From NCBI GenBank assembly GCA_031263105.1, contig JAISGJ010000070.1, forward strand, positions 1-36,594: a DNA stretch of 36,594 nt, written 5' to 3'. Below, in pieces: positions 3,602 to 30,947 of this stretch (the first letter of the stretch is position 1; every line of letters begins with the position of its first letter). The position numbers were made by a program, and so were the translations under genes. This DNA comes from Coriobacteriales bacterium. Its GTDB lineage: Bacteria > Actinomycetota > Coriobacteriia > Coriobacteriales > UBA8131. The notes beneath the pieces are model-generated. The model saw nothing but the letters and a program-made list of their open reading frames with translations, did no database searches and was not told where the DNA came from.

Positions 3602-5647
3602 CTAGGTCATCAGCTCGCTGACGGCCTGGGCGTAGGCGAGGGGGTCGTCGACGTCGAGGCCTTCGATGAGGAGGGCCTGGTTGTAGAGGATGGTCGCATA
3701 GCGCCCGATCTTCTCCGCATCGCCCTCCGCCTCGGCGGCTACGAGTGTGGAGAAGACCGGGTGCTCGGGGTTGAGTTCCAGCACACGGCTGGTGCGGGGG
3801 AACTGGCCTTCGGGCCCGGCGGAGAGCACCTTCTCCATCTCCAGCGAGAGAGGGCCCTCGGCGCTGATGCCGGCGGCGACGTCGGCCAGCCGTGTGGAGA
3901 CGGTGACTTTTGCGACCTTCTCGCCCAGCGCCTCCCTCAGGGCATCGAGCAGCTTCTCGTGCTCGCTGGCGAGGGTTTCCCGTTGCTGCCTCTCCTCCTC
4001 GGTCTCCAGCCCCAGGTCGCTTGACGCAACGCTCTTCAGCGGTTTCTCGTCGTAGGCGGCCATGACGCTCATGCAGAAGTCGTCGACGTCCTGCGTGCAG
4101 AGCAGCACGTCGTAGCCACGGTCCCGCACGCTCCTGACCATCGGCATCTTGGTCAGGAGCGCCTCGTTGTCGCCGACCGCGTAGTAGATGGCCTCCTGGC
4201 CCGAGGGCGCGGCGTCCAGATACTCGCGCAGCGTGACCATCTTCTCCTCTTTGGCCGAGTAGTACAGCAGCAGGTCTGCCAGCGTCGAGGCCAGTGCGCC
4301 GTAACTGGCGTAGATGCCGTATTTGATGCCGCGACCGAAGCACTCGAAGATGCCCTCGTAGCACTCGCGGTCCTCGCTGCAAAGCGTGCCCAGTTCGCTG
4401 ACGATCTTCTTCTCGATGCGTTTGGCGATGGCGCGCAGCTGGCTGTTGTGCTGAAGCGTCTCGCGCGAGATGTTGAGGTTGAGGTCGGCCGAGTCCACCA
4501 CGCCGCGCACGAAGTTGAAGTGGTCGCTGAGCAGGTCGCCGCACCTCTCCATGATGAGGACGTTCGAGCTGTAGAGCGCGAGGCCCTTCTCGAAATCCTT
4601 GTTGTAGAGGTCGTAGGGCGCGTGCGCCGGGACAAAGAGCAGCGCGTCATAGGACAGGGTGCCCTCGGCCCGCAGCGTGAAGGTCGCGGCCGGTGCCATG
4701 TAGTCGTGGAAGTCGCCCTTGTAGAACTCGGCGTACTCCTCGTCGCTCACGTCGGCCTTGGCGCGCTTCCAGATGGGCGTCATGGAGTTGAGCGTCTCTG
4801 TCTCCTGGTAGTCCTCGTATTCGACCTTGGCATCGGCGGGGGCGGCGGGGGCGGGGGCGCTCTCGTCTGCGGCCTCGACCCCGACCCCGGCCACCGACCG
4901 TGACTTGGTGACCTCCATGCGCACAGGGTAGCGCACGTAGTTGCTGTACTTCCTCACAAGGCGCCGCAGTTCATGCTCGCTCAAAAAGGCATCGTACTTC
5001 TCCTCCTCGGCATCCGGCTTGAGCGTGAGGATCACATCGGTGCCGTGCCCGTCGCGTGTGGCGGGAGCGATGGTGTAGCCCTCGACGCCGTCGCTTTCCC
5101 AGGCCCAGGCCTCGTCGCTGCCATAGGCGCGTGAGACCACGCGCACCTTGGAGGCGACCATGAAGCTGGAGTAGAAGCCCACGCCGAACTGGCCGATGAT
5201 GTCGATGGGGTCGCCTGCGGGAGCGGAGGCGCCTGCGGGGGCGGCAGGGTCGCCGGAGGCGGGCGAGGCGCTGCCGGTTGACGGGCCGCCCTTCTCCCCG
5301 TCCTTCTCCACGGCTGCGCCCGCCGCAGCGCCCGCAAGGCCCTCGCGGAACTCCAGGCTGCCGGAGTGCGCGATGGTGCCGAGGTTCTTGTCCAGCGCGT
5401 CCTTGCTCATGCCGATGCCGTTGTCGCTGACGGTGACGGTGCGCGCCTCGCGGTCGAAGGACAGCTCGATGCCCAGCTTTGAGCGCACGACCCCGATGGA
5501 GGAGTCGGTGAGGCTGGCGAGGTAGAGCTTGTCCGCCGCATCCGAGGCGTTTGAGATCAGCTCGCGCAGGAATATCTCATGATTGGTATAAATTGAATTG
5601 ATCATCAGGTCGAGCAGCCGACGGCTTTCCGTCTTGAACTTCTTCAT
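3602..5647 (-). CDS. htpG: Molecular chaperone HtpG (Hsp90)
   Basis: MKKFKTESRRLLDLMINSIYTNHEIFLRELISNASDAADK, DNGIGM, IGQFGVGFYSSF motifs. Confidence 0.96.
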   Translation of the reverse strand: MKKFKTESRRLLDLMINSIYTNHEIFLRELISNASDAADKLYLASLTDSSIGVVRSKLGIELSFDREARTVTVSDNGIGMSKDALDKNLGTIAHSGSLEFREGLAGAAAGAAVEKDGEKGGPSTGSASPASGDPAAPAGASAPAGDPIDIIGQFGVGFYSSFMVASKVRVVSRAYGSDEAWAWESDGVEGYTIAPATRDGHGTDVILTLKPDAEEEKYDAFLSEHELRRLVRKYSNYVRYPVRMEVTKSRSVAGVGVEAADESAPAPAAPADAKVEYEDYQETETLNSMTPIWKRAKADVSDEEYAEFYKGDFHDYMAPAATFTLRAEGTLSYDALLFVPAHAPYDLYNKDFEKGLALYSSNVLIMERCGDLLSDHFNFVRGVVDSADLNLNISRETLQHNSQLRAIAKRIEKKIVSELGTLCSEDRECYEGIFECFGRGIKYGIYASYGALASTLADLLLYYSAKEEKMVTLREYLDAAPSGQEAIYYAVGDNEALLTKMPMVRSVRDRGYDVLLCTQDVDDFCMSVMAAYDEKPLKSVASSDLGLETEEERQQRETLASEHEKLLDALREALGEKVAKVTVSTRLADVAAGISAEGPLSLEMEKVLSAGPEGQFPRTSRVLELNPEHPVFSTLVAAEAEGDAEKIGRYATILYNQALLIEGLDVDDPLAYAQAVSELMT

Positions 5648-5727
5648 AGGTGGTGCCCTTTCTCCTTTTCCGGACGCAGACGTGTCGATGCTTCACATGA
5701 GATTGTACGTTACTGTGGTCACACCCT

Positions 5728-6054
5728 CCACTGTCATTCCGAGCCCCACTGTCATTCCGAGCCCCACTGTCATTCCGAGCCCCACTGTCATTCCGAGCCC
5801 CGCTGCCGCCCCGGGCCCCGCTGCCATTCCGAGCCCCACTGTCATTCCGAGCCTCGCGAGGAATCTTCGGCTGCGAAGCAGCCGAGCGCGGACAGGTGCG
5901 CCTCCCGATCGCAGTTGATCGCTTCGCGATCAAAGATTCCTCGACAGGCTCGGAATGACAGCGGGGCCCGGGGCGGCAGCGGGGCCCGGGGCGGCAGCGG
6001 GGCCCGGGGCGGCAGCGGGGCCCGGGGCGGCAGCGGGGCCCGGGGCGGCAGCGG
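5728..6054. repeat. Inverted-repeat intergenic element with both termini expanded into 18-bp tandem arrays
   Basis: 7 units of ccactgtcattccgagcc-type (5728-5853); right arm ggctcggaatgacagcgg (5947-5964) plus 5 units of ggcccggggcggcagcgg (5965-6054); internal small palindromes. Confidence 0.9.
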
Positions 6055-6119
6055 GGTGTGACCTGTAACGATTGTATTCACCTTCGCCCCGCTGTCAACC
6101 TGGCGCCTGGCAGAATGAC

Positions 6120-6141: not shown

Positions 6142-7104
6142 ATGGATACTTCCGGAGGCCGGAGGCCTCGCCAGCGTGAAGAGCGAAAAGGCACCGGTTG
6201 GGGACGTTGGAGAGTGAGTATGACCGTAGACACAGACGAGCTTGCTGAGTACTATGCCAGCACCCAGCCGTCTTTGTGCGACGCGTATGGAGGGGTCGTG
6301 CCGCCAAGGACGGATTTTTCTGACCCTATCACCAGTCCGGTGGGCAGTGGGCTTGTCATACCGCTGCTCGGCAGGGCGCACTATGTGCTCGATGGGGTGC
6401 CTTACGAGCTTAAGCCGGGGGTCGTCCTGCACGCTGGGGCTGCCATGAGCCTGGAGAAGCGGGTTGTGGGTGACGAGGCATGGGCCTGCGTCCTGGTGCA
6501 CTACCGCATCCCCACAGCCGACGAGGGCGGCTTTCCTCTCTACAACTCGCACTTCTGCATCGAGACCGGTCCTGCCATCCGCTTGCAGGAGAGGGCACGA
6601 TGCCTCCACACGAGCGAACGTGCCGACGGGCATCTGGCGTCGTTGCGGTCGCGGGCCCTGTTCGCCGATCTGATCGGGGAGGTGGTGTCGGCGGCGCAGC
6701 GTCACGGCCAGACCGACGAGAGGCTGCTCATGGACGATGCCCTCGCCTTCTTGGGCAGTCACTATGCGGAGGATATAAGCGTCCAGCGGCTCGCGGCCCT
6801 CTACGGGATGAGCGCCAGGCACTTCGGCTACCTGTTCTCCAAGCACGTCGGGGTGTCCCCGCTGCGCCATCTCACCGACCTGCGCATACGCCAGGCCAAG
6901 GAACTGCTCGCCACGGGCCTGTACAGCGTGGGGCAGGTCGCCCAAAGTGTCGGCATCAATGACAGCTACTATTTCAGCCGGCTGTTCAAAAAGCATACGG
7001 GCGAGCGGCCAAAGGCCTTCAAGGAGCTTCGGATGCGCACAGGGCACGGTGGAGATGCAAAGCACGGTGGGCACGGTGGGCACGCAGGGCACGGCGAGCG
7101 CTAA
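6142..7104 (+). CDS. AraC-family transcriptional regulator with Gly/His-rich C-terminal tail
   Basis: C-terminal double HTH (DISVQRLAALYGMSARHFGYLFSKHVGVSPLRHLTDLRIRQAKELLATG...VGINDSYYFSRLFKKHTGERPKAFKELR). Start may instead be ATG 6220. Confidence 0.9.
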   Translation: MDTSGGRRPRQREERKGTGWGRWRVSMTVDTDELAEYYASTQPSLCDAYGGVVPPRTDFSDPITSPVGSGLVIPLLGRAHYVLDGVPYELKPGVVLHAGAAMSLEKRVVGDEAWACVLVHYRIPTADEGGFPLYNSHFCIETGPAIRLQERARCLHTSERADGHLASLRSRALFADLIGEVVSAAQRHGQTDERLLMDDALAFLGSHYAEDISVQRLAALYGMSARHFGYLFSKHVGVSPLRHLTDLRIRQAKELLATGLYSVGQVAQSVGINDSYYFSRLFKKHTGERPKAFKELRMRTGHGGDAKHGGHGGHAGHGER

Positions 7105-17400: not shown

Positions 17401-17667
17401 TCACACCCCACTGTCATTTCGAGCCCCGCCGAGGAATCCTTGGGTCCGAGTGCCCGGAAAACGCACCGCGTTTTCAGCGAGGACGGCGCGACAGTCCAGT
17501 GGACTGTCGCGGGGCGAAGCTGCGAAGCAGCGGGTGAGCCCATGGAACCGACAGGCCCACGGATCACGCAGTGTCCAACGGCAGGTCGGGGGGCCCTTCG
17601 ACCTGCGGTCGACCGCTGGCGCGGTCGAAGATTCCTCGACAGGCTCGGAATGACAGTGGGGGTGTGA
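17401..17667. repeat. Dispersed intergenic palindromic element (copy 2)
   Basis: Starts tcacaccccactgtcatttcgagcc, ends ggctcggaatgacagtgggggtgtga; internal palindromes aaaacgcaccgcgtttt, acagtccagtggactgt, gctgcgaagcagc. Confidence 0.9.
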
Positions 17668-20868: not shown

Positions 20869-20934
20869 CCCGCTCCGTGGCCTCCGTGCACAAGATTGGG
20901 TCTGCGCGGCTGGCTCTTCTCTGCGAGCTACAGC

Positions 20935-21462
20935 TCACACCCCACTGTCATTCCGAGCCCCCACTGTCATTCCGAGCCCCCACTGTCATTCCGGGCCCCC
21001 ACTGTCATTCCGGGCCCCCACTGTCATTCCGAGCCCCCACTGTCATTCCGGGCCCCCACTGTCATTCCGAGCCCCCACTGTCATTCCGAGCCTGCCGAGG
21101 AATCCTCGACCGCGCCAGCGGTCGACCGCTGGTCGAAGGGCCCTCCGGCCTACCGTTGGCTGCTCCGCGTCCCGTGGGCCTGTCGGTTCCATGGGCTCAC
21201 CCGCTCAGGGGCTCACCCGCTGCTCCGCAGCTTCGCCCGGAAACAGCGCAACGCGCTGTTTCCCAACGCAGCCTCGCCCGGAAACAGCGCAGCGCGCTGT
21301 TTCCCAGTCCGCCGGACTGCCGCGCCGTCCTCGCTGAAAACAGACCCGCGGGTCCGCGCAGGTGCCTTACCCGTCCTTCGCTGACGGCGTGCCGCTGGCG
21401 ACCCGTCCGGGCGCTCGGATCCAAGGATCCCTCGACAGGCTCGGAATGACAGCGATGTGAAC
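20935..21462. repeat. Dispersed intergenic palindromic element (copy 3) with 8-unit 19-bp tandem array
   Basis: 8 x cccactgtcattccg(a/g)gcc at 20941-21092; right end ctcgacaggctcggaatgacagcgatgtgaac; interior related to copy 2 in reverse orientation. Confidence 0.9.
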
Positions 21463-21627
21463 AGTAACCTCAGTGGTGAGCGGGTTGCTCGTAGCATGGT
21501 GTGAGTTGCGGCTGAGCAAATGGCAACTTATACTACACAAAGTAGGTTATTTCTACTACAGGTATATTCTCGCATATATGTTTTTGCGGCAAGGGTTTGC
21601 AGGGAAATGGCGATAAGGGAGGCAAGG

Positions 21628-24204: not shown

Positions 24205-24340
24205 GATTCCTCGACAGGCTCGGAATGACAGTGGGGTGCGAACGGCAGGCGCGTGCGAACGGCAGGGAGTTCCCCGACGGGACGAGGATATAAGGAGGCC
24301 GTGCGAACGGCAGGCGCGTGCGAACGGCAGGCATTTCCCC
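24205..24340. repeat. Solo right-end fragment of the dispersed element plus gtgcgaacggcagg direct repeats
   Basis: attcctcgacaggctcggaatgacagtggggtg without a matching left end; gtgcgaacggcaggcgcgtgcgaacggcagg occurs at 24236 and 24301. Confidence 0.8.
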
Positions 24341-30633: not shown

Positions 30634-30688
30634 AGCGCCCGCACGCAGCGCGAGGCTGCGCCCAGGGAGCGCGTTGCTGCCCGCGCCC

Positions 30689-30947
30689 CACTGTCATCCC
30701 GAGCCTGCCGAGGGATCCTTGAACCCGAGCGCCCGGAAAACGCACCGCGTTTTCAGCGAGGACGGGCCGACAGGCCCACGGGACCCGAGCGCCCGGAAAA
30801 CGCACCGCGTTCTCAGCGAGGACGGGCCGACAGGCCCACGGAACCCGCAGTGTCCAACCGCAGGTCGGGAGGCCCTTCGACCTGCGGTCGACCGCTGGCG
30901 CGGTCGAGGATTCCTCGGCGGGCCTCGGAATGACAATAGGGTGTGAA
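30689..30947. repeat. Dispersed intergenic palindromic element (copy 5) with internal 60-bp tandem duplication
   Basis: ccactgtcatcccgagcctgccgaggg ... gcctcggaatgacaatagggtgtgaac; 60-bp unit repeated at 30721-30780 and 30781-30840 with two mismatches. Confidence 0.9.

Follow-up and report, generated by a model that had tools for sequence, protein, structure and literature searches.

A palindromic element in a 36,594-nucleotide stretch of DNA from a Coriobacteriales bacterium, a stretch referred to here in its entirety as the window, raises the question of how its two arms came to carry tandem arrays of 18-bp units in opposite orientation with the same GC-rich variant in both, and of what moves an element of this kind. 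The element sits between divergent genes identified by Pfam, htpG (3602-5647, minus strand) and the gene of an AraC-type regulator (6142-7104, plus strand). Its left array (5728-5853, plus strand) consists of seven tandem units of 18 bp: five canonical units CCACTGTCATTCCGAGCC starting at 5728, 5746, 5764, 5782 and 5836 (the last, 5836-5853, being the innermost), one GC-rich unit CCGCTGCCGCCCCGGGCC starting at 5800 and one hybrid unit CCGCTGCCATTCCGAGCC starting at 5818, a unit-by-unit reading that agrees with an earlier, sequence-only reading of the window. The right array (5947-6054, minus strand) had been described as one canonical inner unit followed by five GC-rich copies; the five identical copies (GGCCCGGGGCGGCAGCGG, 5965-6054) are present and, when reverse-complemented, match the left GC-rich unit exactly, which confirms that the variant occurs in both arms in opposite orientation, but the inner unit (5947-5964) reads CCGCTGTCATTCCGAGCC and is only near-canonical, with one mismatch. 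Chance is excluded for both arrays by their Tandem Repeats Finder score of 196 each. Overlapping the innermost units are two REP-like palindromes, CATTCCGAGCCTCGCGAGGAATC in the left arm (5843-5865, plus strand), with an ATTCC/GGAAT stem that is reflected in covariation within the arm, and an inverted copy of CATTCCGAGCCTGTCGAGGAATC in the right arm (5935-5957, minus strand); further inward, sequence and predicted fold agree on two internal hairpins, TCGGCTGCGAAGCAGCCGA (5867-5885) and TTGATCGCTTCGCGATCAA (5915-5933).

The span from 5728 to 6054 that was originally delimited encloses both arrays but is too narrow. The whole copy measures 361 bp (5709-6069), runs from GTTAC to GGTCACACC (GTTAC...GTAAC) and is flanked by an 8-bp direct repeat that matches at 7 of 8 positions (gattgtaC at 5701-5708, gattgtaT at 6070-6077) and is read as an imperfect target-site duplication (TSD) on the strength of a family-wide test. 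In that test, 23 of 45 copies matched at seven or more of the eight positions next to their GTTAC ends, compared to 0.1% of shuffled pairs, and a register scan of the same 45 copies placed the signal at 8 bp; in a larger sample, at least 7 of the 8 bp are preserved in 44 of 78 scorable copies, compared to a null of 0.7%. The left terminal inverted repeat GTTACTGTGGTCACACCC (5709-5726, plus strand) matches the end motif of the family, GTTAC(W)G(K)TCACACC, which is found in inverted orientation at both ends of the elements, as well as the ends of an IS66-family transposon described below; the right one (6053-6069), read on the minus strand as GTTACAGGTCACACCCC, is identical to the left end of that transposon in 17 of 17 bases. 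The GTTAC ends together with the TSD of constant length (8 bp) mark the element as a transposed MITE; its small copies are short and numerous and have no transposase gene, and an autonomous partner with the same ends exists in a relative (genome G008), not in the host MAG. The reading that best accommodates the data, and that is held with considerable confidence, is that the element is a non-autonomous IS66-type MITE whose arrays most likely grow after insertion by slippage, with units perhaps sometimes copied from arm to arm.

The candidate source of the transposase emerged when 101 genomes of the order were searched for IS66 transposases, with a match at a locus (L142) in G008, a genome of the same family. 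At L142:211-2512 lies an intact single-ORF IS66-family transposon of 2302 bp, the 575-amino-acid protein of which matches PF03050 (DDE_Tnp_IS66, E 8.5e-20) and, above the curated cut-off, NCBIfam NF033517 (IS66 family). This transposon has ends GTTACAGGTCACACC on both sides and an 8-bp TSD (CAAAACGG/TAAAACGG), and is likely to be an autonomous relative of the mover of the MITEs; the end motif is absent from 1.09 Mb of background sequence. Duplications of 8 bp are known from the IS66 elements ISPpa5a and ISPpa7 (PMC3281130), and the MITE family resembles the IS66 family both in this respect and in that an IS66 transposase lies between the same ends in a relative. The differences are that the ends begin with GTTAC and not with the typical GTAAGCG, as exemplified by L139, a typical IS66 element of the same bacterial family with GTAAGCGTC ends, that the L142 element has a single ORF and that the MITEs encode no transposase. 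Thus, the mover would be a divergent IS66-related subgroup, not a classical IS66. The host MAG, 86% complete, has no detected transposase of the IS66, ISL3 or IS256 type, and a search of 868 kb of it for a full-length autonomous copy with paired ends and TSD returned one spurious match only. Multicopy IS genes are commonly missing from MAGs. Judging from the shared ends, a transposase of the IS66 type, with its source inferred from the relative, is the likely mover of the family. A separate MITE family in G001 (L162-L170) has ends GTTACTGTTCACGCCCC, 8-bp duplications and a palindromic REP-like interior of the GTCATCC(T) type, with no 18-mer arrays among its members, and a very small element, GTTACTTTTCACACCCC...GTCATTGCGAGCGCG..., is located near 1000-1070 of L172 (genome G020). 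The widespread bacterial repeats of the GTCATT(C/G)CGAGC type may be IS66-type MITEs in general.

The window is contig C232 of a MAG of 2.9 Mb in 250 contigs (86% complete, 6.5% contaminated), the nearest named HtpG relatives of which, with a best identity of 77%, are Coriobacteriales MAGs; several of these are, as we read their isolate names, from termite guts, and the host bacterium of the family probably shares this habitat. Within the MAG, the 18-mer unit allowing up to two mismatches has 612 and 546 matches on the two strands (1,158 altogether), compared to 6 and 2 for a reversed-pattern control; the end motif has 174 and 178, compared to none on either strand in its control; and a 29-mer core has 105 and 99 and is absent from 32 other genomes of the host's family. 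From 1.68 Mb of sampled stretches, 294 elements (approximately 175 per Mb), 170 of them with both arms, were obtained by a parser that takes recognisable arms only and misses decayed copies. A simple copy of approximately 162 bp consists of GTTACTGTTCACACC, one unit, the palindrome CTGTCGAGGAATC, two internal hairpins and the inverted repeat of the same order, and a further short hairpin appears in its predicted fold. The exact tandem 36-mer was not found in 84,980 species genomes, possibly not including the window's own; a plasmid collection gave no match to the repeat, and a literature search with its letters returned unrelated papers only.

Expansion affects 117 of 464 arms (approximately 25%), which carry from 2 to 11 units. 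The arrays occupy the segment bounded on one side by the transposon end repeat and on the other by the innermost unit, which stays near canonical across the family. The end motif is present no more than 45 bp beyond the outermost unit in a similar share of scorable array arms (80 of 104) and single arms (237 of 332). The period is 17-20 bp, mainly 18 or 19, and is constant in 21 of the 28 arrays of at least four units in the first sample. Among 62 arrays of at least four units, 60 are distinct, and the TSDs of array-bearing copies are weaker (a mean of 4.7 matching positions, compared to 6.0 in copies without arrays; p = 0.02). Because nearly all arrays are unique and the TSDs of the copies that bear them are more decayed, growth by slippage after insertion is most likely. 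The proposed pathway would begin with an IS66 transposase that acts in trans to insert the element, by cut and paste or by copying, into intergenic sites, preferentially those of divergent promoters. Replication slippage between the short C-runs on either side of the unit (CACACCCC...GAGCC), which would provide the initial microhomology, could then first duplicate the unit, after which recombination or further slippage would enlarge the array. The outer units, unpaired with GGAAT, would be free to change and would move from A/T to G/C. The inverted arrays could fold together, and a template switch of the polymerase or gene conversion would sometimes copy units from arm to arm, from which rare variants common to both arms, and hybrid units like the one at 5818, would result.

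Exchange between arms, as opposed to independent mutation, had been proposed for the window copy from its shared variant; the family as a whole shows excess sharing, and across the family exchange has somewhat better than even odds. Arrays occur in both arms of 16 elements where approximately 9.6 are expected (Fisher p = 0.011); 3 of these 16 have a rare unit variant (non-canonical and not T10C) common to both arms, compared to 0.57 with shuffled arms (p = 0.012); and the periods of the two arms are concordant in 11 of 16, compared to 6.7 expected (p = 0.017). The p values of these arm-exchange tests range from 0.011 to 0.027, come from 16 elements and several overlapping tests and are uncorrected for multiplicity. 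The best case is an element at L211 164-291, in which two unusual variants (CACTGCCGCTCCGCCC/CGC) occur in both arms and nowhere else in the sample; other striking cases are the element at L030 19194 and the window copy, in which the hybrids in the left array (start 5818) and at the innermost position of the right array look like boundaries of copied tracts. The overall arm-similarity test was not significant in the first sample (p = 0.064), and the mean partner percentile across the family is only 0.64.

The strongest competing explanation, which is given a little less than an even chance, is that recurrent mutation or biased repair produced the GC-rich variant separately in the two arms, which would then have converged without exchange. 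A directional change of the required kind is visible in the outer units, where, with position 10 excluded and the canonical unit assumed to be ancestral, the change from A/T to G/C amounts to 0.204 per site and the reverse change to 0.027 (ratio 7.5), compared to 0.012 and 0.014 (ratio 0.9) in single units; the ratio in the core interior, all positions included, is 2.1. Counting every distinct variant a single time leaves the bias in place (162:49 compared to 20:21, p = 0.0005), and biased repair or conversion is one candidate for its source. The GC-rich variant of the window is found not only in both arms of the L030 19194 element but also in one arm in L241, where an otherwise unrelated element carries the same GC-rich 16-mer, and the arm-to-arm similarity of the window element reaches only the 66th percentile. 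Given these other occurrences, the general drift from A/T to G/C and the unexceptional similarity, recurrent mutation is a possible origin of the variant shared by the arms of the window copy. Shuffling of arms preserves the bias, yet the observed variant sharing and period concordance exceed the shuffled expectation, and the L211 variants are confined, among the elements sampled, to the two arms of one element; both observations count against independent origin across the family.

At position 10 of the unit, the base covaries with its partner in GG[A/G]AT of the same arm (215 T-A pairs, 104 C-G pairs and 12 mismatched) and has no association with the opposite arm. Since the covariation is within the arm only, pairing at this position is maintained in the small palindrome of each arm and not in a long cruciform. 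Part of the covariation could come from the inheritance of two arm types.

Whether selection instead maintains the arrays, for instance because they give the transposase or a host protein additional sites to bind, as proposed for tandem repeats in the ends of Galileo (PMC3573991), can be judged from the same data. The constant position of the arrays beside the end repeat, the limited variation of the unit at CACTG and at some of its C positions, and the precedent in eukaryotic transposons count in favour of such selection, but array-bearing copies appear to be older by their weaker TSDs and not more mobile, single units prevail among the copies that are most intact, and array sequence decays outward. 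Selection for arrays is therefore considered improbable. Greater doubt still attaches to the idea that short-read assembly collapsed or expanded the arrays, which is very unlikely: the MAG is in 250 contigs, and a unit is found within 120 bp of the start of 31% and of the end of 41% of contigs, compared to 3.8% of random places, but the 36.6-kb contig encloses both arrays of the window copy (126 and 108 bp), their variants can be told apart, and more than 100 arms show the same anatomy. Because assembly breaks at these elements, long arrays are under-represented, and true array lengths elsewhere are probably longer, not shorter. Orthologous strain-level copies for comparison of arrays were not found; the long similar contigs are 74-88% identical and apparently represent a related contaminant or paralogues. 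One such pair in a single bin, C138 (L204 9622-18325) and C133 (L235 14131-5302), has long collinear homology at 81-87% identity, apparently a gene cluster from two species, by which the MAG would be mildly contaminated with a related organism.

The same low probability is assigned to retention of the element for a host function, as a bidirectional terminator of transcription or as a structure that stabilises mRNA. The predicted fold of the window copy is indeed strong (-280 kcal/mol), but no Rfam family was matched at threshold (sub-threshold hits being chance matches to microRNAs), and the gene context is the reverse of the pattern of terminators. Among 110 flanked elements, with genes called by a rough in-house gene caller, 49 lie between divergent genes, which account for 27% of intergenic bases, 9 between convergent genes (20%) and 52 between co-directional genes (53%). 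The divergent enrichment and convergent depletion disfavour a terminator and fit insertion into promoter regions.

The least probable reading, with hardly any weight left to it, is that of a REPIN- or BIME-type element moved by a RAYT (REP-associated tyrosine transposase), the gene that the sequence-only reading had suggested looking for: each arm does have a REP-like palindrome, the arms are inverted, the copies are intergenic and abundant, and the MAG has Y1-transposase genes (two of IS200 size, two of 250-290 amino acids), but the elements have 8-bp target duplications and ends in common with an IS66 transposon, no canonical unit is found in the 3.3-kb loci (approximately 1.5 kb on each side) around the two RAYT-size genes, neither of which is flanked by the element, and inspection by eye found no GTAG/CGTC tag at the element boundary. 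REPINs are not known to leave a target duplication. All four Y1_Tnp matches in the host MAG were considered as movers and rejected, none being near fully canonical elements. In contig C191 (L011:800-1115 and 1935-2180), another kind of tandem repeat (GTGACAAAG-type, GTGACAAAGCGTGACAAAG...) flanks a RAYT-size Y1 transposase gene and is probably the repeat family of that gene itself. With an IS66-type mover preferred, an abundant REP-like repeat family of Coriobacteriales is assigned to a source other than the RAYT that a first reading would name.

Among known systems, prokaryotic MITEs such as Correia, Chunjie and QMITE2 (PMC10969869) are alike in their short length, inverted ends, target duplications, lack of genes, mostly intergenic location, many copies and richness in hairpins; the present family departs from them in the tandem arrays of 18-bp units that both of its arms carry in subterminal position and whose length varies. 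Searching the text of that review for tandem arrays and for IS66 found neither. REPINs and BIMEs (PMC3116915, PMC2817692) resemble it as intergenic inverted pairs of REP-like palindromes, and some REPINs form tandem clusters, but here there are target duplications and IS66 ends, and what is repeated is part of one arm and not an entire REPIN. Homogenisation of inverted-repeat arms by template switching (PMC8604942, PMC8794818) is the mechanism proposed here for shared variants, and has been described for short single palindromes, whereas here there are paired tandem arrays. There is also a likeness to the Foldback/Galileo elements of Drosophila (PMC3573991), which likewise have inverted arms with tandem sub-repeats that change in number independently in each arm, and for which exchange of sequence among copies has been inferred. 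Those are eukaryotic elements of the P superfamily with kilobase arms and sub-repeats of approximately 210 bp; these are bacterial and IS66-type, with 18-bp units. The present elements have the long inverted arms of short direct repeats in variable number that characterize Foldback transposons, and their IS66-type partner places them outside descent from the eukaryotic Foldback/P/MULE superfamilies, so that by analogy the element can be said to work like a Foldback transposon and not to be a member. The family is accordingly best described, again by analogy, as a new, unusually dynamic IS66-type MITE and a bacterial counterpart of Foldback/Galileo elements, in a style more familiar in fruit flies than in bacteria. 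The hundreds of independent copies, each with its own array history, constitute a natural experiment for bacterial DNA, in which slippage, copying between arms and the bias from A/T to G/C could be followed. A bolder version, in which the element is a prokaryotic Foldback-type transposon with inverted arrays that co-evolve by hairpin-mediated template switching and directional, G/C-biased conversion or repair, is offered tentatively and is rather doubtful; if true, it would provide hundreds of natural replicates within a single genome for measurement of arm exchange and GC-biased conversion in bacteria.

Other copies of the family in the window differ in their degree of expansion. A second array-bearing copy (20927-21468), with no clear TSD, has a left array of eight 19-bp units (20942-21092), a single unit in the right arm and an enlarged interior. 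Two copies have no arrays, at 17408-17659 (from the outer edge of the left unit to the outer edge of the right unit) and at 30688-30939, the latter with an interior enlarged by a 60-bp duplication. A half element with one arm only (24205-24234, minus strand) lies beside a degenerate tandem of GTGCGAACGGCAGGC at 24236-24332, which has a 17-bp period and is made of another portion of the element end. Interiors also grow, by tandem duplications of 41 bp (21226-21306) in the second array-bearing copy and of 60 bp (30721-30847) in the copy at 30688-30939.
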